Assembly (NCBI GenBank): GCA_013362805.1 | Contig: JABFVL010000001.1 | Location: 1 to 64,000, forward strand | Length of the DNA: 64,000 nt | Reading direction: 5' to 3' | Source: Mycobacteriales bacterium | Lineage (GTDB): Bacteria > Actinomycetota > Actinomycetes > Mycobacteriales > QHCE01 | Shown: piece by piece, positions 12,808-64,000 of the stretch | How positions within the stretch are numbered: the first letter of the stretch is position 1 | How the letters are laid out: each line of letters begins with the position of its first letter | Notes under the pieces: model-generated | Told to the model about the DNA's origin: nothing | The model's input: the letters and a program-made list of their open reading frames with translations, nothing else | Database searches by the model: none | Translations under genes and position numbers: made by a program

Positions 12808-12916
12808 GTGGGTCGTTCGATAGTCCGATCACTTCTCAGGGTTTTGGGGCGTTACCGCTCGGTAGTGGGTAAGAATCGAGAGCCGAATCTCGGCACCAAT
12901 CCCACCAGGAGCGGCA

Positions 12917-15900
12917 ATGTCGAACGACGCACGGGCTACCCGCGCCCAAAAATTCACGCAGTGGATCACCGAAGGGCGTAAGCGTCTCGCCTACTGTGTT
13001 GATCGTGACTCTCGTGCTAACAGCATGGGAGGGTTGAACTATTGGCATTTGCTAGAGCCTTTACGAACCTCGGCGATTCCAACTTTCAACGAGGACGGTG
13101 AATGGCAGCGGCCCGACCGGGCGGGTGTGCTGCACCCTGACGTGGTCGCGATCGCCCGGCCGGGAACCCGTCGACCGCTGGGTTTCGCCGTCATTCCTAA
13201 CGGGGCCGATGAACAGAATTCGTTTGCCGATCAGCCCCATATAAAGATCAAACTGCTGAGCAATCAGCTGCGCTTGGTGGCCAAAACGGTAGAGGGCACG
13301 CCCGAGGACGGGAGCCGAGGGGTCGCCTATCTGTGGGGGCTGCCCGAGGCCAGCTTGATCACTGATTTGGTGGGACATACCTCAGCGAGTTCGGTGAGCT
13401 TCGACATCGCACGAGATTTGGGTGCGAGCGCTGTGGCCGAGGCGGTCAGCGATCTGCTTAAGCCCCAGGTGGATGGGGCTTCCCCGCGGGTTTCGGTGAA
13501 TGTTTACGCCCGCACAGGGGAAGACGTTCAGGAACGCATGCGCTTGTTGGATCGTTTGGAGCGTTTAGCGCAGGCGAACGCCGGCAAACTCACCGTGCGA
13601 GCTAGTCCTAGTTTGGTCAATCCCGAAATCGCCAACGATCTTGACTCCGTGACTGTCCGCGCGCAGATGGCCGATGACCCCGAAGCGCTGGGGAAGGTGC
13701 TCGAACTGTGGGCTGATGGGGAACGCCCCCACAAGCCACCTGTCGCCATCCGACCGCTAACTAAGTCGGCGGCGGCACATTTGGAATTTCCTCGGCTCGA
13801 GGAAATTGACCATCTTTTTTGTGCGATGGACCGAGAAACCGCTGAAGCCCAGGCCGCTGATTTCGCCCGGGCTCAGCGAAGCCCAGATATCAAACGGTTT
13901 GGCGCTCTGCGCACCTGCATGCCGGTTGAACTCGCGAAAACGCTGAAAAATCTGCGGCGGAACAACCGTGTTGTTGTTTTGCACATGGGCGGCGGGGAGG
14001 CAGTCCCTATTAGAGCCGTGTTCGACCAACTGCCTAGTGAACTGCGTCCTGATGCCGTAGTGGGTTCCTTTCATGAGTTTGCTGTACTCAGTGCGGACCG
14101 CACGTTGCCAGCCACCGTGGTCGCGCAACGGTATACCGGTATTGCTGGAGCACGCGCGACCCGGGGGCTGGTAAATCGCGGAGCGTTAGACAAGCTCCGC
14201 GACACGTTGAGTCGTCAGCAAGTCATCGCGGCGAAGGTGAAATCGGGTCGGCGGGCTCTAGGTGAACGCGACGTGCCAGCCGAGCTTGCGGACATTGTGG
14301 ATTCGCTGCGCAATGAGAATTTTAGTCCCATGCTGCCGGTAAAATATTCGCCGCAGGATGCTCGCAAGATTTCACCAGCTGTCGACGTGGTCACGAACGA
14401 TGACGCCACCTTGGTGACCATTTGGCGCGGTTCACCACATAGCTCGCACCGAGAATTCCGATTGCTGTTGCCCGCTAACAGTGAACGCTGTGCATTCGCG
14501 GCCACCGACGGCGTGGGACCAACCACCGACTCAGCATGGGCGGTGAGCTTGGGCGTCGAAGATGTGGATCATTATCTGAGTCTTATTCGGACCGCATCCC
14601 CCTCCCGAGAACTGAACTTCATCGTGGGTCGTGGCCGTGATCCACGCGTCATCGCCGAGACAATTCGGCGCGCCCAACAGCGGCACTTGATCGCTGATGA
14701 CACGTTGGTGTCGGTCACTTTGACCGATGCCGAAGGAACTCATGGGGCCGCAGCGTTACGCGAGTTGGGCGCCCTGCAGCGCACATGGAAAGGCGCCGGG
14801 AAGCTGAGCTTGCGGTGCGCTGTTTTCGACCCCACCACCCGGTCGGCTTTGACCGGCATCGTTGAGCGCCGAAAGCTACCAGAGAATCCGTTGGCCTGGC
14901 AGCGCGTAATAGAAAATCACGACCGTCGGAGCCGGGCACACCGGAGCGCGGAACTGACACCAGCCCCCATGGTCGCGCCTACGTTGCCATCCTGGGAAGC
15001 GGCGTTAGAGCTCAAAACGCTGGGCGTCGATATTGACGGGGTCGGCCAGACTGGTGCCGCGGATTTCATAATCGTGACAGACCCGGGAACTTACACAGCG
15101 CTTAACTTTCCTGACTCGCTCGCCGTGGAGTTGCTTTCCCGTGAGCGTCCCGTTGAAACGATCCAATGCCCGCCGAGTCAACTGGGCGAGCTCATTGAGC
15201 GACTGCGCGGTGAAAATGCCGAGCGTCACCCGCGGATTGCGGTATGTGCGTTCAGCATGGAGGCGGCCGCTCGCACATATCGCATCGTTTCTGAACTGCC
15301 CACCGCGCAGGCGCCGCACTCACTTGTCATCAATAGGCAGTGGCTACGGGGGAGCGCGAAAGACTCGCAGCGGATTCTCGCGCCACACCTTTTCCAAAAT
15401 CAAGTGGCCGTGCTGGAAAATCAATCAGCACGCACCGCAGGGGAAGAACGAGACGCCTCCTATCGCCTGGCACATGCTGAGGCGGCGCTTAAGTCAATGG
15501 CCAGTAGTGCGCAGCAGCAGGAAAACACGGCGCATGCCTTGCGTGTGCTTGAGAATCCGGACGATGCGATGCTGCTCGGGCCGATTCTGGAGCATGCTCG
15601 ACATTGGGCATTGAGCGATTCACGTGAGCCATCTGGGCTCGAAATCGGCCACGATTATGCCGTAATTCATGTTGGGATTCGGCCCCAAGCTCAACATCGG
15701 ACAGTTGTGATCGCGCCGAACACAGTTGACGCCGCGCATGCCGCCAGCACACAACGCCTCGATACCGCTCGATACGCCGTGTCGACGTATTTCAGCGTCG
15801 CACCCGATTCGCGCGAGTTGGTAGCGCTGGCCTTTGAAGGCATAGAACCGCAAGAGCTTGTCTTTCAAGTTGATCGCGTAGGGGCCGCGGATGCCGTGGC

Positions 15901-18900
15901 CGATGCGCTAATTGTGGCTGGCCAAAACATGCGGGAGCTTGGTCCGCGCCCGGATGGTCGCATGCGGCGAGTGATAGTTCGGGTGGGAAACAGCGATGCG
16001 CTCCTGGAATTTCAGCAAGCTTGGCAGGCGCGGCTGGAGGAAGCTCCTGACGACCTGCCAATCTTTATCCATCTGGACGACGATAAGCTTCGGCCGCTTC
16101 TCGCCCGTGCGGAGCGGCCCGCACCGACTAAATCGGCACAGCAGCCACCACCACGTGGTTGGCAGCGCCAAGACAAAGCCTGGCATCACCTAGGCGGCCC
16201 AAAGCCCGGCGCGGCCCGACATGTCTTGCTGCTCACGGTCCCCGATGAGGAAATGCTCGATTGGGATGGGCTCGCATCGCATGTGCCTGACGATCTGCCC
16301 GCTGACACAGCGGTGACCGTGTGTGCGCCAAGGCAATTCACCCGCACGTTGGCTCAGTTGGAAGACCTCAAGCACACGGAGAGCGTCACGGTTTTCGCTC
16401 CGCCCCTGTCCGGAAATGGCGCACGCAACCTGGATCGGGACGTCAAGCGACGGCCGACAACGACCACTTCGCTTATGTTGCCCCCGCCCGTCGATGTTGA
16501 TGGCTTCACCGTTGCCGGGCAGTTCGTATCCGCAGATGGCCAATTTGCACGAGTTCCGGGTGTGGGACGACCACCTCGTCCACCGCGCCGGCAAACAATG
16601 GCCCGCTTGCCTGACTGGGCGGCTCCACGGGCATCGAATGCGACACAAGATGACCGTCCGTCGACCTTTGCCGCATTGACGGAACTTCGATCGCGACTCG
16701 CCGGAACATCAAAGACGACAAAAGCTCCTCGGGCTACCGACGATGTGCAACACCTCGAGTCTTTGCATGTGGACGGACCCACCCTCGAGCACGCATCAGA
16801 CATTGTTGTTGTCATCGGTGGCGGGAACATGAGAGTCTCGCGGCTTCGCCAGATGGTGAAGACGCACCGGCGACCAGATAGCGATGTGCTTGTGTTGCGC
16901 CCCAGCAGCGGTGATGCCAAAGCCGCGCTGCGCGAGGTGCTGGCTGAAAAGCGTGAGGACGCGAGAATATCGATCCTGACTCTGCCTGACGCTATGGCAG
17001 TGATCGGTGAACTGGAAATAAGTGGTGTGGATCGGGTTTGGGTTCCTAGCGCGTTGGCGAGCGGGCGCGATACGGGCAGATTGCCCGAAAATCTGGTCCA
17101 TGAGTACCGCTGGAACAACGCGGCGTTCCCCACAGACGTAGTGAACGGCTGGTGGGCTTTACAAGGAACAGAGCAGGACTCTCCAAATACGCTCATACTG
17201 TGCGCGGACTGGAATGCGGAACGGCCTGCCCCGGTCGATGTATATGAAGAACCGCATGCCGCGGTTGTACACGCGATAGAGCCGTTGCCTACCGCCTGGG
17301 CATGCCGACCAGCGCAGTTGCGGGAACTGCTACACAAGGTACTGCGCGACACGCCCAATGCCCGAGTCGCTGTCGTGGGTGGTCGCGAAACTCATGCGGT
17401 TGTTGCCGCATTGGGTCAAGACGAATTCGCGATAGCGCCCTCGATGCTTTTCCTCGAACATGACGATGAGGAAGAGCTCGGCGCTCTTGGATTGCCGCCA
17501 GCTACCGTGCTTGCACCTTTGCCTGAGCTGGAAGATGACCAAATAGACGCCATCGAATGGTACGGCGCGCGGCAAGCGGCCATTGAGGCGTTTGCTCAGG
17601 AATTTGTCGCGGACAAGGCGAATTTGCCGGGCGCCGCGAGTGCGCTATCCGATCTGGTGCCCGAAAGCGAACTCGGCCGGGGTGCCCTGATCACGCAGGG
17701 TCGAGCAGTCGCCTATCTACCGACGGCTGCTGGGTTTCTTCTCACCCCGCAGCGACGCATCGTTATCGGCGCGGTGGATGTTAATCAAACTCGTCCCGCT
17801 TCTCCGTGGGAAGGCGTCGCGACTATCGTCTATGAGCCGGGCCAGCTTGGGTTGGCCGACGCGGGTGTGTTGGCATCGCGTTTGGCAACCGTAGGAGATC
17901 GGCCTGAGCAGTTCATCGTCGAAACCACTGATCCCGAGTTGGCGCAAACGGTTGCCGCGCTTGAGGCCGAATTTGCCGAACGGGTGGAGGCAGAACAGGC
18001 GGATGCTCTGGTGGCTGATGCGCCGCCGACGCTGGAAGAGCTAAAGCGGACTTTGAGTGCCGGGTCGGCCCATGAACGCGGATTGCGCGCTCCACAATGG
18101 GTCCGATGGCCAACCGATAACAGTGAGCTTGAGCCAGGCACGCGCGTCTTGGTCGCCTGCACTCCCTCTGAAGAGCAAACCGGCCTGCTCACTCGCACAG
18201 CCCTTGATGCGCCCACTGCCCTTGGCGAGTTTGATGACGTTGTTAACGGGCTGCTGTTGGCCAGAGAAGTGGGGCCGCGATCACCCGTGGCGCTGGTTGC
18301 CTGGCCAGGGCAACTGCGGTCAGTTTTGGAGCAGATGGAGCAGGCGGGTGAACGGTGTGTTCTGCCAGATGCTCTGCTCACCTCACATCAAGACGTAAAC
18401 GAGGTATGGGGTGGGACAACACCGAACGAGTTGTTTGGGCATCCCGTGGCTATCTTCAGTGATGGCGTGGCGACAGGCGCGTTCGGGAAGAAAAGTGTGA
18501 ACAACACCTTTGGTTTATTGACGCCGCCACCAGAGGCACAAGAGCCAATTAAAGTGCGGGCTCAAGAGTTCTTGCCCACTGAGCCGGCACGGGAGCCAGA
18601 GCCGCCGCTCATTGAGCTCCCACCCGCGGACGTTGATCTTGTGGCAGCAGACGTGGAAGTGGCCGTGCAGACGGGTCAGTCGCAACCATTGGTCGCGTCT
18701 GGGCAATCAACTATGCCAAAGCCAGCCCCTCCACGCGCTCCACTGAGCGTTGTCCTACCGACGACTACCGATCAATACCTGCCCGGCGACGTGGGGACAC
18801 ATTCATCCGTCATCGACCAGATAACCCCACGCACTGATTCGACCAAGGTCGCTGTCGTGGTTTTCGCCCGAATCCCGCCGGGACGACGGCCTGCCTTTGC

Positions 18901-20674
18901 CGAGGAAATCCTTGAACGTTTTCCCGAATCCGCCGCCACTCAGGTGCACTATTTCGGGCCGCAGAAGTCCATTGAGTGGGAACCTGCTTTACTCGCGGCA
19001 AGGGAAAACCATGCAGGGCTTCCGCTGGTCGCCTGTCTGCATTCAAGCGTCACCGCCGCGGTAGGTGCGCGGTGGGCGCGAGTGCCCGTTGAAGCCTTGC
19101 CCAATGTGGTCATGGTCAGGGAGGGAAGGCTGCTTGACGAGTTTTACCGGCGTTTGCCAAATTTCGTGCTGCCGACGCATTTTTCGGATCCGCTCCCCGC
19201 AAGACCGATGGTTGAGGACGCGATTGCCTCCGCATCGCGGCATGCCGAACTCTTCAAAGGTATGCGGGCGGCCACCCAAACCGCTAATGCGAAGAGAACC
19301 TTTTGGCCCGGCATGGAGATCGTTGATGGGGGCGAAGACCTGCCTGGGCTCCTGACTTATCCCTCGGCGAAGGTTGGCGCGAGCGAACGCACCCTGTTGT
19401 TGAGCTCGCCGCACATGCTCGAGCGCCGCTCCGGAGACGGCTTGACCGCCGATGTGCTGGGCAAGGTGTCAGAGGAGACACTGTATGGCTTTATGTGCGG
19501 AGCTCGGCGGCTGACTGTGCGGTTGTCTGACCATCCGTCGCTGGACGCGGCGCTAAGCGCGCTTGACCGCTTTAGCAATGACACGGGCATTGAGGCTAAC
19601 GTTCACGTTGAGGTGCAGGGCATTCTCGGGTGGGAGGCGACCGCACGGGTAAGAAATCTGGTCAGACGGAACGTGACGCTATGGCCCAACCCTGATCGAG
19701 CTCGCATCAGCGAACCGGTCTCAACGCTAACCCTCGACGTCTCAAACAGCCCCACGGAAATGCCGGCATTCGAGGTTAGGACACAAGCGGAGCACCGCCT
19801 AGTAATCCCACCTAATGAGGATGGCCTTGCGCGATATCGCGAACGCGTAAGGCGATTAGGCCACGACACGCGAGTCCTCGCGCGATGTCTACCTGGCCAG
19901 GAGCCGGCGCTCGCCGAGTTTTTGAACACGCTGCCAGCTGATGAACTACCTCTGGCTGTATTCGTCGATGCGGCTGGACTTTCACCGTTCGCCGACGCAG
20001 ATGTGCCCGACTGGCTGCCCATCATCGCTAACAGCGCGGGTAATGGACTACCTGAGCTGGACCCGAGCAAGGTTCACGCTGCCATACGTGACCGAGAAAG
20101 ATCACGCATCGCTCACCGAGTGCTCAGCGCGGAAGTCAAGCACAACCCGACGCTGTACGAGGCAGTGCGCCAAGCGGGGCAAGTGACCTTCGTGCCCAGG
20201 GGTCATGCGCGTTATGGGAGAGAAGCGGATAGCCAGCTCTTTTCGCCAGCTCTATGCGTCACTGTCGATGACAACGCGACGCCGCGAGGCGCGATTTTTA
20301 GCGGCGGATCGCCCGCGTTCGCTGACGAAGCGCATATCTTTCTATCTCGTGTGATGCCAATTGGGTTCAAGGGGCGACACCAGTTGATCCGGCGAAGCGA
20401 CGTGCTCGGAGATGTTCAGCCAGAAACCCTGCTCGGGATGGTGCCAGAGCAAGGCGTCTCTACGTTTCGGCTCACCCCGCATCCCGCGCTCGCTTCAGCT
20501 GTTGAAGCGATTAAGACGCTGCTCAGCATGGACCGACCCGTGCGGCTTGAGCTCCGAGAGTCGGAACGTTCCGCTGAGCTACGTGAGGCTGTGCACGCCC
20601 TACACCAGCATCCGAACAGCCGCTGGCTCAATCGGCACGATCCACCGGCATCACCAAGGCCACAAAGTCTGTAG
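12917..20674 (+). CDS. Giant 2585-residue protein of unknown function with degenerate internal repeats
   Basis: One uninterrupted frame starting at ATG after AGGAG. I do not recognise the family. No signal peptide or membrane helix is evident, so it is probably cytoplasmic. By eye it is built of degenerate repeated units. The two clearest lie at the C-terminus: WPGMEIVDGGE at 2130 with ADVLGKVSEETLYG at 2178, and SPALCVTVDDN at 2443 with SDVLGDVQPETLLG at 2494, a period of about 315 residues. Weaker copies appear near 73-240, 352-620 (SPAVDVVTNDD at 486), 700-830, 913-1070, 1296-1500, 1590-1690 and 1725-1820. Units have alternating hydrophobic strands and helices, as in Rossmann-like alpha/beta domains. 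Pro-rich linkers fall near 1190-1270 and 1865-1955. It stands between rel and asnB, ends at a strong hairpin, and appears to be a monocistronic insertion in otherwise conserved gene order. Confidence 0.85.
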   Translation: MSNDARATRAQKFTQWITEGRKRLAYCVDRDSRANSMGGLNYWHLLEPLRTSAIPTFNEDGEWQRPDRAGVLHPDVVAIARPGTRRPLGFAVIPNGADEQNSFADQPHIKIKLLSNQLRLVAKTVEGTPEDGSRGVAYLWGLPEASLITDLVGHTSASSVSFDIARDLGASAVAEAVSDLLKPQVDGASPRVSVNVYARTGEDVQERMRLLDRLERLAQANAGKLTVRASPSLVNPEIANDLDSVTVRAQMADDPEALGKVLELWADGERPHKPPVAIRPLTKSAAAHLEFPRLEEIDHLFCAMDRETAEAQAADFARAQRSPDIKRFGALRTCMPVELAKTLKNLRRNNRVVVLHMGGGEAVPIRAVFDQLPSELRPDAVVGSFHEFAVLSADRTLPATVVAQRYTGIAGARATRGLVNRGALDKLRDTLSRQQVIAAKVKSGRRALGERDVPAELADIVDSLRNENFSPMLPVKYSPQDARKISPAVDVVTNDDATLVTIWRGSPHSSHREFRLLLPANSERCAFAATDGVGPTTDSAWAVSLGVEDVDHYLSLIRTASPSRELNFIVGRGRDPRVIAETIRRAQQRHLIADDTLVSVTLTDAEGTHGAAALRELGALQRTWKGAGKLSLRCAVFDPTTRSALTGIVERRKLPENPLAWQRVIENHDRRSRAHRSAELTPAPMVAPTLPSWEAALELKTLGVDIDGVGQTGAADFIIVTDPGTYTALNFPDSLAVELLSRERPVETIQCPPSQLGELIERLRGENAERHPRIAVCAFSMEAAARTYRIVSELPTAQAPHSLVINRQWLRGSAKDSQRILAPHLFQNQVAVLENQSARTAGEERDASYRLAHAEAALKSMASSAQQQENTAHALRVLENPDDAMLLGPILEHARHWALSDSREPSGLEIGHDYAVIHVGIRPQAQHRTVVIAPNTVDAAHAASTQRLDTARYAVSTYFSVAPDSRELVALAFEGIEPQELVFQVDRVGAADAVADALIVAGQNMRELGPRPDGRMRRVIVRVGNSDALLEFQQAWQARLEEAPDDLPIFIHLDDDKLRPLLARAERPAPTKSAQQPPPRGWQRQDKAWHHLGGPKPGAARHVLLLTVPDEEMLDWDGLASHVPDDLPADTAVTVCAPRQFTRTLAQLEDLKHTESVTVFAPPLSGNGARNLDRDVKRRPTTTTSLMLPPPVDVDGFTVAGQFVSADGQFARVPGVGRPPRPPRRQTMARLPDWAAPRASNATQDDRPSTFAALTELRSRLAGTSKTTKAPRATDDVQHLESLHVDGPTLEHASDIVVVIGGGNMRVSRLRQMVKTHRRPDSDVLVLRPSSGDAKAALREVLAEKREDARISILTLPDAMAVIGELEISGVDRVWVPSALASGRDTGRLPENLVHEYRWNNAAFPTDVVNGWWALQGTEQDSPNTLILCADWNAERPAPVDVYEEPHAAVVHAIEPLPTAWACRPAQLRELLHKVLRDTPNARVAVVGGRETHAVVAALGQDEFAIAPSMLFLEHDDEEELGALGLPPATVLAPLPELEDDQIDAIEWYGARQAAIEAFAQEFVADKANLPGAASALSDLVPESELGRGALITQGRAVAYLPTAAGFLLTPQRRIVIGAVDVNQTRPASPWEGVATIVYEPGQLGLADAGVLASRLATVGDRPEQFIVETTDPELAQTVAALEAEFAERVEAEQADALVADAPPTLEELKRTLSAGSAHERGLRAPQWVRWPTDNSELEPGTRVLVACTPSEEQTGLLTRTALDAPTALGEFDDVVNGLLLAREVGPRSPVALVAWPGQLRSVLEQMEQAGERCVLPDALLTSHQDVNEVWGGTTPNELFGHPVAIFSDGVATGAFGKKSVNNTFGLLTPPPEAQEPIKVRAQEFLPTEPAREPEPPLIELPPADVDLVAADVEVAVQTGQSQPLVASGQSTMPKPAPPRAPLSVVLPTTTDQYLPGDVGTHSSVIDQITPRTDSTKVAVVVFARIPPGRRPAFAEEILERFPESAATQVHYFGPQKSIEWEPALLAARENHAGLPLVACLHSSVTAAVGARWARVPVEALPNVVMVREGRLLDEFYRRLPNFVLPTHFSDPLPARPMVEDAIASASRHAELFKGMRAATQTANAKRTFWPGMEIVDGGEDLPGLLTYPSAKVGASERTLLLSSPHMLERRSGDGLTADVLGKVSEETLYGFMCGARRLTVRLSDHPSLDAALSALDRFSNDTGIEANVHVEVQGILGWEATARVRNLVRRNVTLWPNPDRARISEPVSTLTLDVSNSPTEMPAFEVRTQAEHRLVIPPNEDGLARYRERVRRLGHDTRVLARCLPGQEPALAEFLNTLPADELPLAVFVDAAGLSPFADADVPDWLPIIANSAGNGLPELDPSKVHAAIRDRERSRIAHRVLSAEVKHNPTLYEAVRQAGQVTFVPRGHARYGREADSQLFSPALCVTVDDNATPRGAIFSGGSPAFADEAHIFLSRVMPIGFKGRHQLIRRSDVLGDVQPETLLGMVPEQGVSTFRLTPHPALASAVEAIKTLLSMDRPVRLELRESERSAELREAVHALHQHPNSRWLNRHDPPASPRPQSL

Positions 20675-20676
20675 GC

Positions 20677-20710
20677 GTGGTGGCGTCGAATTTGTGTTCG
20701 ACGCCACCAC
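20677..20710. terminator. Bidirectional hairpin terminator between the giant gene and asnB
   Basis: A perfect 14-base inverted repeat (GTGGTGGCGTCGAA at 20677-20690 and its complement at 20697-20710) with a 6-base TTTGTG loop. It begins three bases after the giant gene's stop and ends six bases before the stop of the convergent asnB. There is no long U tract, but position and symmetry suit a shared terminator. Confidence 0.8.
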
Positions 20711-26870: not shown

Positions 26871-28193
26871 ATGAGCGATTTAGAATCACTATTTTCCGAA
26901 GAACCTCAGCTATCAGTTAACCGCGCGTTCCTGAAGCTGTGGGATGAATTAGAGCGGCTCATGGCAGGCGACCCAGTTTTACGGCGGGTGCGATTGGACC
27001 TGCAGTCTGGCTTACACCCCATAAGGGATGTCGTGCGGCTTCTGTCCGATGAAAAAGAGCGTCTGCGGCGAAGCGTTGGTATCAATGATGTCTTATCGCG
27101 CCTCGCGGAGCTCGAACAGATAGCAGAGATCGAGGACCCTGTAGGCGTCCATGTTCGAGACAAACCAACTGACGCCCCTAATGCACTCACTGTCGTTCGG
27201 CAGCTCGCGGGCAACTTCGAGTCTGACTCAGCTGTTGTGCTTTTTACCCATGGAGGCCCCGCGGTTCCTGGGCTCGTCGCTCAATTGGATGGTCAAACCG
27301 CACGGTTTGAGGCGGCCGCTCAAGGCGTTCCGTCGGGAATGGCAGTTTTCGCGGTCGGAACCTCGAGCGCGGAAGTACCGGAAAAGGTTGTCAAAGAGGC
27401 GCTTGATCTGGTGGCCGAACTAGTACCGAATGCGCAGCTCGCGCCTGTTTTTGCGGAAGATCCGTACCAGCTCGCTTACGATGCGTCCGGTTTCGATTCG
27501 CATAATTCAAAGCGACTCGATGGAGTGCTAGATCCCGCCAATTTGGGTTCTGTGGCAGAAAAACTTGCGGCCGTCGTGGTGGAAGATGATTTCCTGACGA
27601 CCATAGATCACCCGCGTGCAGTGGTCCCCAATGGATTGTCTGTGCTCACCGCGGGTGACTTGCATTCTGGATATAGCGACTGGATGTCCGATCCGTCCGC
27701 GTGGGAGCGGATAGCTGACGAGCTCGCAAGTGTGAGGGAGACGCGCAGAGTTGAATCATGGCTGGCGGCCGAACACGTAAAAAACGTTGGTGTGCTCGAT
27801 AAGAGCATGGAAGGGATCCGCGGGCGGTTTTCGGCGAACCAAGATCGAGCTGATCATGCTAGAAGGATGCATTTCTTAGTTGCGGTTGACACAGCAAAAC
27901 TGACGGTGACCACGGCTAGATATCTCGGCGATGCTCGTCCGCGGGCCGTTCATTTCGTTCCTGATGATGGGAAGCCGATGGCTGTTCGGCCGGGCGAAGG
28001 GATCGTCGCTATTCACGGGCCGTGCCGCTCCGAGTTTCTGACGCAACTCACCGAGCACCTGCAACAGAATTGTTTCACTGACACTACTTATCCACCGCCG
28101 ACCTTCGTGGTCTCGGAGACACTCAGCCAGCCGGCTCGCTCAAAGTGGCGCGCCGTCGGGGGCGTGCCGCGACGTCCCACTCCGAAAAGATAA
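26871..28193 (+). CDS. Uncharacterised 440-residue protein
   Basis: I do not recognise this protein. It starts at an ATG close behind a GGGG stretch. The first 120 residues are mostly charged helix (LWDELERLMAG, LLSDEKERLRRS, LSRLAELEQIAE). The middle and C-terminal parts alternate hydrophobic strands and helices (AVVLFTHGGPAVPGLVAQL near 122, GMAVFAVGTSSAEVPEK near 155, GIVAIHGPCRSEFLTQL near 385). No signal peptide, membrane helix or nucleotide-binding loop is evident. The basic C-terminus ends RRPTPKR. It stands alone between the aspS terminator and rarA. Its overall alpha/beta texture faintly recalls units of the giant protein at 12917-20674, but I could not align them with confidence. 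Confidence 0.75.
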   Translation: MSDLESLFSEEPQLSVNRAFLKLWDELERLMAGDPVLRRVRLDLQSGLHPIRDVVRLLSDEKERLRRSVGINDVLSRLAELEQIAEIEDPVGVHVRDKPTDAPNALTVVRQLAGNFESDSAVVLFTHGGPAVPGLVAQLDGQTARFEAAAQGVPSGMAVFAVGTSSAEVPEKVVKEALDLVAELVPNAQLAPVFAEDPYQLAYDASGFDSHNSKRLDGVLDPANLGSVAEKLAAVVVEDDFLTTIDHPRAVVPNGLSVLTAGDLHSGYSDWMSDPSAWERIADELASVRETRRVESWLAAEHVKNVGVLDKSMEGIRGRFSANQDRADHARRMHFLVAVDTAKLTVTTARYLGDARPRAVHFVPDDGKPMAVRPGEGIVAIHGPCRSEFLTQLTEHLQQNCFTDTTYPPPTFVVSETLSQPARSKWRAVGGVPRRPTPKR

Positions 28194-57802: not shown

Positions 57803-58907
57803 GCCGCTGCGAGTCGCATTGGTGCTCGCCACCAGCACTGGCGGAGTTGGCACCCATGTGCGGTCATTGGCCGCGCACTTGGGCAAGCTAGGCCACCAGG
57901 TTGTGGTCTGTGGCCCGGCGGCCACTGAAGATGTCTTCCATTTCACCGAAGTGGGCGCACAGTTCCACCCGGTGAATATCGCCACTGGGCTCAACCCTCT
58001 GCACGACGCTAAAGCGGTTGTCGCGTTGCGAAAGGCGCTGAACAGCACCCGAGCTCAGGTTATTCATGCCCATGGCTATCGCGCGGGTTTGATCGCACAC
58101 TTGGCTCGCGCCAAAAAACCTCGGCCTGTTCCGTTGACGGTGACCTGGCACAACGTGCTGATGGCAACGGGAGCTAAACACGCCGTGCTGGCTCGCCTGG
58201 AACGCATTGTGGCGCGCGGCGCGAACATCACTTTGGGCGCCTCAGAAGATTTGGTAGAGCGCGCTATCGGCTTGGGTGCACCCGATGTGCGATTCGCGCC
58301 TGTCGCTGCGCCCCTGTTGGCGCAACCGGAACGAGATGCCACGCAAGTGCGCGTGGAACTAGATGCCCGGGATCGCCCGTTGGTGTTGTCGGTGGGGCGA
58401 CTTCACCCACAGAAGGGCTTCGATGTACTGGTAAGGGCCGCGGCGCGCCTGTCGCGGCGTGATCGCCCGCCGATGGTGGTTATCGCGGGTAGCGGTCCAG
58501 AAGAAGACAATTTGCGCCTGCTGGCGCAAGAGTTGAACGCTCCGGTTCGGTTTTTGGGTCGTCGAAGTGACATCGCGGATCTGATCGCGGCCTGCGATAT
58601 TGCCGTTGTGACGTCGCCTTGGGAAGCGCGCCAGCTATTCGCGCAGGAAGTTTTGCAGGCCGGCAAGCCGCTAGTGGCAACCGCTGTTGGGGGTATTCCT
58701 GGTCTGGTTGGCAATGGTGCTCGCTTGATTCCAGCTGGCGATGTGAATGCCGTTGAGGAAGCGGTTGCGGCGCTGTTGGATGATCCAACTGGGGCCGAGC
58801 AGCTGGCTGAGCGCGGTAAGGCGCAGGCTAAAACGTGGCCCACCGAAGCGGAAACCACGGCGATGGCCGTTGCGGTTTATGCGGAACTCTTGGGGGTGCC
58901 AGCGTGA
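57795..58907 (+). CDS. Glycosyltransferase family 4 protein
   Basis: A 370-residue cytoplasmic GT-B fold enzyme from the GTG at 57795, seven bases after AAAGGAGG. The N-terminal Rossmann domain starts RVALVLATSTGGVGTHV. The donor-binding domain has VLSVGRLHPQKGFDVLVRAA near residue 195, VIAGSGPEEDNL near 229 and a modified EX7E region EARQLFAQEVLQAGKPLVAT near 279. It transfers an unknown sugar from an activated donor. Its overlap with murJ in front and with the next membrane protein behind suggests assembly of a lipid-linked glycan. Confidence 0.9.
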   Translation: MAEPLRVALVLATSTGGVGTHVRSLAAHLGKLGHQVVVCGPAATEDVFHFTEVGAQFHPVNIATGLNPLHDAKAVVALRKALNSTRAQVIHAHGYRAGLIAHLARAKKPRPVPLTVTWHNVLMATGAKHAVLARLERIVARGANITLGASEDLVERAIGLGAPDVRFAPVAAPLLAQPERDATQVRVELDARDRPLVLSVGRLHPQKGFDVLVRAAARLSRRDRPPMVVIAGSGPEEDNLRLLAQELNAPVRFLGRRSDIADLIAACDIAVVTSPWEARQLFAQEVLQAGKPLVATAVGGIPGLVGNGARLIPAGDVNAVEEAVAALLDDPTGAEQLAERGKAQAKTWPTEAETTAMAVAVYAELLGVPA

Positions 58908-61090
58908 GCATTGCCTTGCGCCGGGCATGCGGTATCGCACTGGCGATGATGCTGGCTTTGGCGACAGTCGTCGTCCCCATGCCAGCGGTGGCTCAAGCCG
59001 CACAAACTCCCATGGACCATGTTGTAATCGTGGGAGTTCCTGGGCTGCGCTGGGTAGACATTGATAAAGAAAATACTCCCACTTTGTGGCGTTTGGCTGA
59101 CACTGGCGGCATGGGCAACATGTCGGTGCGTGCGGCAGCGGCATTGACCTGCCCGGCCGATGGCTGGGTGACGTTGGGTGCGGGAAACCGGGCCCGCAGC
59201 CCCGAGCCGCGAGCACATCGCTGCCCGCCAGAATTTCCCATCGCCGAGCCCGTCCCAGCTGGTGATGGTTCTTATCGACTAGCTGAGCAGTCTCAGATCG
59301 CCGATGACAACAACGAGCTAAATCATGGTGCTCGACCGGGAATGCTGGCTAGCAGCGTGCGTTGTTCTAGTGCGGTCGGTCGGGGTGCGGCGACCGCGGC
59401 GGCCCGACCGAATGGGCGGGTGGAAAATTACAGTCCCACGATGCCAACTGATCTAGCGGAGTTTCTGCGACGTTGTCAGATCACGGTGCTCGAGCTCCCA
59501 CAGGTGAGCGGCGAGTTCCGCAAAGAAATGGCAAACGATGTAGATCAGCAGGTAGCGGCGATTGAGGCAGCGCTTCCTGAGCGGACCATGCTGATGGTCG
59601 CCGGGGTCGCGGATCTGACGGGGCCGCCGGCATTGCACACGATGATCATCAACGCGCCTGGCTATGAACACACCTGGCTCACTTCGGCCAGCACCCGGCG
59701 GCAGCCATATGTGCAGCTCATCGACCTTGCCCCCACAGCATTGAAGGCGCTGGATGTGGGCGCGCCGAAAGCCATCGTTGGGCAACCAATGACAGCTGGG
59801 CAAACCCGAGACCGATCGACTGATGTGTCCATCGATGGATTGGAAGACGCACAGGAAGCGACCGCGGCTCAGCGTCCGCTGGTGCCCGACTTCTATTCGA
59901 TTCTGGTCACGTTGAACTTGCTGTTGTTGGCTGTTGGCGCGGTATATTTCCGTCGCCGCAGTAAACGAGTAGGGGAGACCTTGCCCGACCCGGCCGCTGG
60001 TCACAGTGGGCGGCCCCATCTGTTGGGATCGCTGCGTGAACGAAGGGTCGCGCGCATTATTGAGATCGCGGCCACCGGCATCGCGGCTATTCCGGTGTCG
60101 GCCTTCCTGGCGAATTTGTTTCCTTGGTGGCGCGCGGACGACACTCGCACTGTTCTATTTGGAACAATCGCGGCGCTTAGCGTTGTTATTACCTTGGTAG
60201 CCTTGCGTGGCCCGTGGCAGCGCCATCCCTTGGGCCCACCAGCTGTGGTCGCGTTGTTCACTGGCGCCGTGTTGGGTGTTGACGTAGTGATGGGTTCACA
60301 CCTAGAACTCAACTCGATGCTGGGATATTCACCACTTGTCGCCGGACGGTTTACCGGGTTTGGTAACTACGGTTTCGCGATTTTCGCCGGCGGCATCATT
60401 TTGGGTGCGGCTTATGTGGCTCAACTGTTGAACGGTTGGAACCGAGTCGGCTTCTTGATCGGGCTTGGTTTGGTGGTGGTGATCGTTGATGGAGCTCCAA
60501 TTTGGGGTAGCGATGTCGGCGGCATCATCGCGCTCACGCCCGCCTTCATGATTTTGGCGATGCGCGCCTCAGGGGTGTGGCTGTCTCCTTTGCGTATCTT
60601 GGGCAGTCTGGCAGGCGGTCTGGTGGCGGTAGCTATCTTCGGCTGGATTGACTATTTGCGTCCTGAGGGTGAACGCACTCACCTGGGTCGTTTTGTGGCT
60701 CAAATGCTGGACGGCACCGCGGGCACGATCGTGCAACGCAAAGCCGAGGCCAATGTGAACTTGCTGGTCAGCAGCCAACTCACCATTTTGGTGATTGCCG
60801 TGGCGTTGTTCGTGCCGCTGATTTTGTTGCCCCGCAGTGCTGGTTTGCGTCGGGTTTTTGGTCTTTACCCCTGTGTCAAGGCCGGGGCGATAGGCGTGCT
60901 CATCGCCGCTGTGGTGGGTTTTGCCGTCAACGACTCGGGCATCGCGATTCCCGCGTTTATGTCCGCGGTGGTGGTTCCGCTGATTATCGCCACCATTTTG
61001 CGAGTGCTCGCCTCGTCCACGAGAAGCGTGGCCACTACGCAACGGAGTCCTGTTGCCGAGGCTGTTCTCACCGAAAAGGCTGAGGGCTGA
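58904..61090 (+). CDS. Polytopic membrane protein with degenerate alkaline-phosphatase-like domain (copy 1)
   Basis: 728 residues from the GTG at 58904, overlapping the glycosyltransferase stop. A signal peptide (about 1-30, cut after AVAQA) leads to an extracellular domain to about residue 325, then about ten membrane helices. The extracellular part follows the phosphodiesterase/alkaline phosphatase layout: VVIVGVPGLRW, TPTLWRLADTGG, LTCPADGWVTLGAG, and VQLIDLAPTALKAL. The metal-binding Asp usual in the first strand (xxDGLR) is Pro, and no SDHG motif is present, so the site looks inactive. The membrane part has SMLGYSPLVAGRFTGFGN, VGGIIALTPAF and DYLRPEGERTHLGRFV. The next gene is a paralogue. 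Role unknown, probably in the envelope. Confidence 0.82.
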   Translation: MSIALRRACGIALAMMLALATVVVPMPAVAQAAQTPMDHVVIVGVPGLRWVDIDKENTPTLWRLADTGGMGNMSVRAAAALTCPADGWVTLGAGNRARSPEPRAHRCPPEFPIAEPVPAGDGSYRLAEQSQIADDNNELNHGARPGMLASSVRCSSAVGRGAATAAARPNGRVENYSPTMPTDLAEFLRRCQITVLELPQVSGEFRKEMANDVDQQVAAIEAALPERTMLMVAGVADLTGPPALHTMIINAPGYEHTWLTSASTRRQPYVQLIDLAPTALKALDVGAPKAIVGQPMTAGQTRDRSTDVSIDGLEDAQEATAAQRPLVPDFYSILVTLNLLLLAVGAVYFRRRSKRVGETLPDPAAGHSGRPHLLGSLRERRVARIIEIAATGIAAIPVSAFLANLFPWWRADDTRTVLFGTIAALSVVITLVALRGPWQRHPLGPPAVVALFTGAVLGVDVVMGSHLELNSMLGYSPLVAGRFTGFGNYGFAIFAGGIILGAAYVAQLLNGWNRVGFLIGLGLVVVIVDGAPIWGSDVGGIIALTPAFMILAMRASGVWLSPLRILGSLAGGLVAVAIFGWIDYLRPEGERTHLGRFVAQMLDGTAGTIVQRKAEANVNLLVSSQLTILVIAVALFVPLILLPRSAGLRRVFGLYPCVKAGAIGVLIAAVVGFAVNDSGIAIPAFMSAVVVPLIIATILRVLASSTRSVATTQRSPVAEAVLTEKAEG

Positions 61091-61092
61091 CT

Positions 61093-64000
<2,908 letters not shown>

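Follow-up and report, generated by a model that had tools for sequence, protein, structure and literature searches.

Giant proteins restricted to single bacterial lineages are already known. Apilactobacillus kunkeei encodes Giant1 to Giant5, which are presented as extracellular surface proteins specified by five consecutive genes (PMC12863079), and a survey of huge proteins counts those of more than 5000 aa (PMC11573180). Type VII secreted giants of the WXG/LXG kind offer a further comparison. Here we describe a protein of 2585 residues encoded in a 64-kb stretch of DNA, the whole of which was analysed and is called the window below. Like the A. kunkeei Giants, it is a lineage-restricted, very large bacterial protein of thousands of residues; unlike them, it is the product of a single gene, has no export signal and is built of alpha/beta domains. 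It resembles the proteins of the survey in being a large outlier without clear function, but is only about half of 5000 aa long. Its N-terminal cap is helical in a low-confidence model but lacks the W-x-G expected in the N-terminal helical hairpin of WXG/LXG giants, the first instance of W-x-G falling at residue 503. The two domain families that build the protein (termed X and Y), their alternation and its apparently intracellular nature are undescribed in the libraries searched, and we found no literature on a protein family of this kind.

The giant gene and its surroundings

The giant gene (12917..20674, +) is an intact frame of 2585 codons with no internal stop, in agreement with an earlier note on this DNA that had claimed one intact 7.7 kb frame. 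Its G+C content by codon position (0.70/0.49/0.62) is of coding type, as in other coding sequence here, and the pattern is similar across all sixths of the gene. A ribosome-binding site, AGGAG, can be read at 12907..12911 (+), 5 nt upstream of the ATG. The product is acidic (pI 5.7), has a mass of 281 kDa and contains 16 Cys. Profile searches of the genome showed the gene to be single copy, and it takes up ~7.8 kb of a genome of 3 Mb. It lies 110 bp 3′ of rel and is convergent with asnB; between the two convergent genes there is an inverted repeat whose 14-bp arms match perfectly around a 6-nt loop (20677..20710, no strand assigned), likely a strong bidirectional terminator.

The only relative of the protein, found in an Antarctic genome (see below), is encoded in a different setting. 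There, the genes that come after rel are ppiA, one for a membrane protein, and hisS; the giant gene is located elsewhere, flanked by an SGNH hydrolase on one side and DUF393/hemolysin III-like genes on the other. The rel-asnB position, which the earlier note had proposed checking for synteny, is thus not kept in the only relative genome. Since the neighbours differ in the two genomes, there is no conserved partner and no evidence for a multi-gene system, and the suggestion of an undescribed system finds no support for this single-copy gene.

Elsewhere in the window, a 440-aa frame (26871-28193, +) sits between aspS and a rarA-like gene and has a GC3 of 0.56, below that of its neighbours. It has no match in Pfam, NCBIfam or PADLOC and none in the relative genome; as a short relative of the giant it was rejected, with X and Y profiles giving at most 3.8 bits. 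Two adjacent and similar large proteins (58835-61090 and 61093-63261, +) have a signal-like start, similar N-terminal halves and multi-spanning C-terminal halves, apparently the outcome of tandem duplication. The pair adjoins glycosyltransferase-like and MurJ-like genes.

Two domain families in alternation

The giant protein begins with a helical cap and continues with copies of two domain types, X (~190 aa, six copies) and Y (~110 aa, eight copies, many with the motif C-x-P-x-Q-L), arranged mostly as X-Y-helical-linker modules. The two types were resolved by phmmer segment searches and profiles, profile methods being needed because a plain BLASTP self-comparison of the protein returned no match. 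In the strictest control, each copy was scored by a profile from other orthologous groups only and set against 500 composition-preserving shuffles; 27 of the 29 X and Y copies that the window protein and its relative contain between them scored above every shuffle. The two that failed were X4 (66/500) and Y7 (3/500) of the window protein, and the orthologs of both pass. Pairwise Smith-Waterman comparison gave scores of 79 for X5 against X6 (null 30.8 ± 4.9) and 73 for X1 against X2 (null 32.5 ± 5.8), each with 0/1000 shuffles, and was without significance for X1 against X3 and X5 against X3. Nothing long is repeated at the DNA level within the gene, which argues that the duplications are old. 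Judged from sequence, the X and Y repeats are genuine but ancient. No homology between X and Y was found by hhalign; the Y profile gives 6–9 bits on a few X copies, and descent of both from a common Rossmann-like ancestor is possible.

Much of what the earlier note had read by eye stands. The motifs that it quoted were all found (residues 73, 142, 486, 2130, 2178, 2443 and 2494), the C-terminal pair that it aligned corresponds to X5 and X6, and the weaker N-terminal copies that it suspected are real by the X1/X2 comparison and the leave-one-out profiles alike. The chain of degenerate alpha/beta repeats is borne out by profiles, shuffles and models, and profile and Smith-Waterman comparison within the chain reveals significant internal similarity. 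What falls is the single unit of ~315 residues: in its place are two domain families with helical linkers, with consecutive X copies ~405–415 aa apart over the N-terminal third and ~310 aa apart at the C-terminal end, so that ~315 fits the last two X copies only.

All features of the map are on the forward strand, and bit scores are those of the leave-one-out profiles, with 0/500 shuffles unless stated. The helical cap (residues 1–62; 12917..13102), which is ~35% identical to the relative, is followed by X1 (63–265; 13103..13711; 11.9 bits), Y1 (290–403; 13784..14125; motif RTCMPVEL; 19.6 bits) and a first helical linker (404–467; 14126..14317), supported by linker alignment and by low-confidence model helices at 422–450 and 455–465. 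X2, the copy modelled alone (468–665; 14318..14911; 9.9 bits), and Y2 (707–828; 15035..15400; motif IQCPPSQL; 21.8 bits) precede X3 (882–1086; 15560..16174; 14.7 bits) and Y3 (1094–1183; 16196..16465; motif TVCAPRQF; 14.8 bits). Next come a degenerate Y copy (1286–1391; 16772..17089; 10.9 bits) and Y4 (1416–1531; 17162..17509; motif WACRPAQL; 15.9 bits). The degenerate X4 (~1570–1722; 17624..18082) is not significant alone and was assigned via its ortholog in the relative (1604–1811; 35.1 bits, 0/500), the direct match joining residues 1591–1713 of the giant to 1629–1752 of the relative. Y5 (1735–1840; 18119..18436; 22.4 bits) is separated from the degenerate Y6 (1971–2085; 18827..19171; 10.2 bits) by a segment whose sequence is proline-rich (~1850–1960; 18464..18796), where the relative has an extra X (1988–2170). 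The two C-terminal units of the earlier note are X5 (2112–2280; 19250..19756; 19.1 bits) and X6 (2421–2580; 20177..20656; 10.5 bits). Between them is the degenerate Y7 (2295–2368; 19799..20020; 7.5 bits, 3/500), whose region aligns co-linearly (SW 95) with the relative's C-terminal piece; the ortholog there (195–315) scores 36.1 bits with 0/500. As single degenerate copies, X4 and Y7 are uncertain.

An AF2 model of the first unit (residues 1–470, 7 sequences) reached pLDDT 63 and pTM 0.48; at this mediocre confidence strands alternate with helices in both X1 and Y1, and no PDB entry matched it below E 0.001. The fold of Y is that predicted by this weaker model. X2 by itself, modelled from 13 copies, reached pLDDT 75 and pTM 0.74, with core residues 70–130 above 90, and shows leading strands first and strands alternating with helices after. 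Foldseek searches of the PDB with X2 returned ARF-type GTPases as best (E 3e-4, prob 1.0, TM 0.37–0.42) and alpha/beta hydrolases with TM up to 0.43 (PETase) and E ~1e-3; for this model from 13 sequences, no TM reached 0.5 and all were below 0.45. The same two classes were nearest to X among viral structure models. ARF/Ras small GTPases (best 1rrg_A, with relatives) are like X in their alternating strands and helices of similar length, but the rmsd is 6.7, and GxxxxGK[S/T] and NKxD are absent from the giant and both pieces of its relative. In alpha/beta hydrolases (PETase 8etx, feruloyl esterase 7xrh, phage esterase A0A3G3M680) the order of elements is parallel to X, but TM stays below the usual 0.5, and by alignment and scan every X copy lacks the G-x-S/C/D-x-G elbow that would carry the nucleophile behind strand 5, the corresponding turn from strand to helix having sequences such as GRGRD, GQGRE, ARDLG and ADPAA. 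The model supports X as a mixed alpha/beta domain, best called Rossmann-like, outside any assigned family.

Motif scans found no P-loop, HExxH or CxxC in the giant or its relative and no G-x-S-x-G in the window protein. The relative has pattern matches to the latter at 1595 (GPSAG) and at 439 of its C-terminal piece (GGSLG), neither at the strand-5 elbow position. The giant has no membrane helix (highest 19-residue Kyte-Doolittle mean 1.45), and hydropathy and motif scans detected no Tat/RR motif, LPxTG, anchor or hydrophobic signal stretch. The earlier description of a soluble protein without signal peptide, membrane helix or catalytic motif agrees with these scans.

An Antarctic relative and the limits of distribution

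The sole relative found is a giant protein in the only other searched genome of the same family (QHCE01, which we take to be a GTDB family name within Mycobacteriales), an Antarctic MAG of a different genus. Its contig, QHCE01000022.1, was deposited as 'Acidimicrobiales bacterium isolate RRmetagenome_bin2 antarctic', the order name being the depositor's. The gene there encodes 2393 residues and runs to the contig end, whilst a second contig of that genome starts inside a 584-residue frame (L044:6812-8566, −) containing X-Y-linker-X. Since this frame is co-linear with window residues 2290–2541, the two pieces probably belong to one protein, which would be at least 2977 residues long (2393 + 584) and have one more X than the window protein. 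Its C-terminal tail, in the same frame, is basic and proline-rich (RRRVTRRRAQLPGHRPGADEPTPRGPAAQR); the proline-rich tail of the window protein is short. The giant and its relative are ~27% identical overall, compared with 72% for rel between the same two genomes. By block, identity is 25–35%, with one block at 44%, and is nearly flat along the chain, on two sequences per orthologous position. The ~7.8 kb given over to one single-copy gene, together with a frame that appears to have stayed open for 2977 aa or more in a second genus even though identity has fallen to 27%, is in our view strong evidence of a function particular to this lineage.

Profiles of the N-terminal part, X and Y were run against 399 genomes from the order, 297 from the class and 396 from the phylum, together with a scan of genome contigs, and yielded no further credible member. 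No relative was present in IMG/VR or in the phage and plasmid collections, and PDB sequences gave no match to the giant. Against Pfam, NCBIfam and PADLOC neither the giant nor the 2393-aa relative had a match (best 14.8 bits, cut-off 27). The verdict of no recognisable family is upheld, and no confident match of the whole chain to a known multi-domain family emerged from these libraries or the PDB sequences. By these searches, the giant protein is restricted to one family among the genomes searched.

Of the weak matches that profiles A2, A5 and A6 gave elsewhere in the order (E 1e-5 to 5e-3), those opened were put down to chance or convergent motifs and rejected, the genes being named by reading the sequence. 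Those of A2 fell in acetaldehyde-dehydrogenase-like genes (G073, G071) and a methyltransferase neighbourhood (G282), that of A5 in a CaiB-like gene (G085), and those of A6 in stretches like the histidine-kinase N-box (G187, G284) and in a frame that lies opposite a region resembling a CoA ligase (G049). The Y motif V-x-R-C-x-P-x-Q-L-x-x-V-L (for example at 13916-13940 and 15164-15187) is reminiscent of the histidine-kinase N-box at its strand-helix start (D-P-x-R-L-x-x-V-L-x-N-L) and matches histidine kinases weakly; the likeness is probably convergence.

Scaffold, enzyme or exported array

Could the internal similarity simply reflect an alpha/beta composition rich in alanine and leucine, or the frame be long but non-functional? 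Single copies are very divergent and plain BLASTP is blind to them. However, composition-preserving shuffles fail to reach the observed scores, X and Y profiles give at best 5.7 and 9.9 bits on the other ORFs of the window, and the frame persists in a second genus. We consider this explanation highly improbable; it is refuted for the protein as a whole, with X4 and Y7 uncertain alone. An unlikely but more serious alternative is a giant enzyme or ligand-binding machine in which at least one X/Y module would keep an undescribed active site, for example around the loop of Y that bears C-x-P-x-Q-L or in a pocket of X resembling, in degenerate form, that of a hydrolase or GTPase, with the others structural. 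The recurrence of C-x-P in Y of both proteins and the nearest PDB classes of the X model speak for this, but the TM-scores are low, the P-loop and G-x-S-x-G elbow are missing from the giant (the isolated matches of the relative lying off the elbow), and no clear conservation peak is seen along the chain. A real active site could nevertheless be missed because each orthologous position is represented by two sequences.

We likewise think it improbable that the protein is exported or located at the surface, for example released by a type VII (ESX-like) system or when cells lyse, and acts as a conflict protein or an array resembling an adhesin, its fast divergence then reflecting interaction with the outside. 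The gap in divergence between giant and rel fits such a role. Moreover, the genome encodes an EccC-like 1339-aa frame (L051, G000:C3:10179-11513; 262 bits to TIGR03924, below the family cut-off), so a type VII-like ATPase for secretion may exist in the organism, and it is this ATPase that gives the route some chance. The match is weak, however, and the control set also matches in 9/14 genomes; the export and anchoring signals sought are absent, as is W-x-G from the cap, and the chain ends in an X domain with no toxin domain at its C-terminus.

We tentatively favour a non-catalytic, cytoplasmic string of domains serving as scaffold or multivalent binding array, which is the default reading for catalysis-free repeats. 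Duplications within the gene, long ago in the ancestor of one actinobacterial family, would have built up the array, and rapid divergence would have followed. Behind its helical cap, the alternating X and Y domains, joined by helical linkers, would form an extended platform on which each module offers a variable alpha/beta surface to partner or neighbouring molecules. The lack of a conserved catalytic motif, together with flat conservation, favours this scaffold over an enzyme, and the absence of any block standing out as a conserved catalytic domain fits a structural role. Fast, flat divergence with the architecture kept is expected if selection acts on overall shape and hydrophobic cores and not on one active site, although the C-x-P-x-Q-L of many Y copies could be functional. 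Rather doubtful is the bolder form of the idea, namely that two undescribed alpha/beta families, which arose in one uncultured actinobacterial family or changed there until unrecognisable, form a giant scaffold inside the cell, as a rod or filament, without counterpart in other bacteria.

With the repeat map, single modules can be expressed and deep profile searches run directly. Despite the low identity, the protein persists in a cousin genus in a still longer version, and its domains are absent from every curated library searched. Should X and Y turn out to represent new folds or a new scaffold, two domain families would be added, together with a rare bacterial giant built of alpha/beta repeats.
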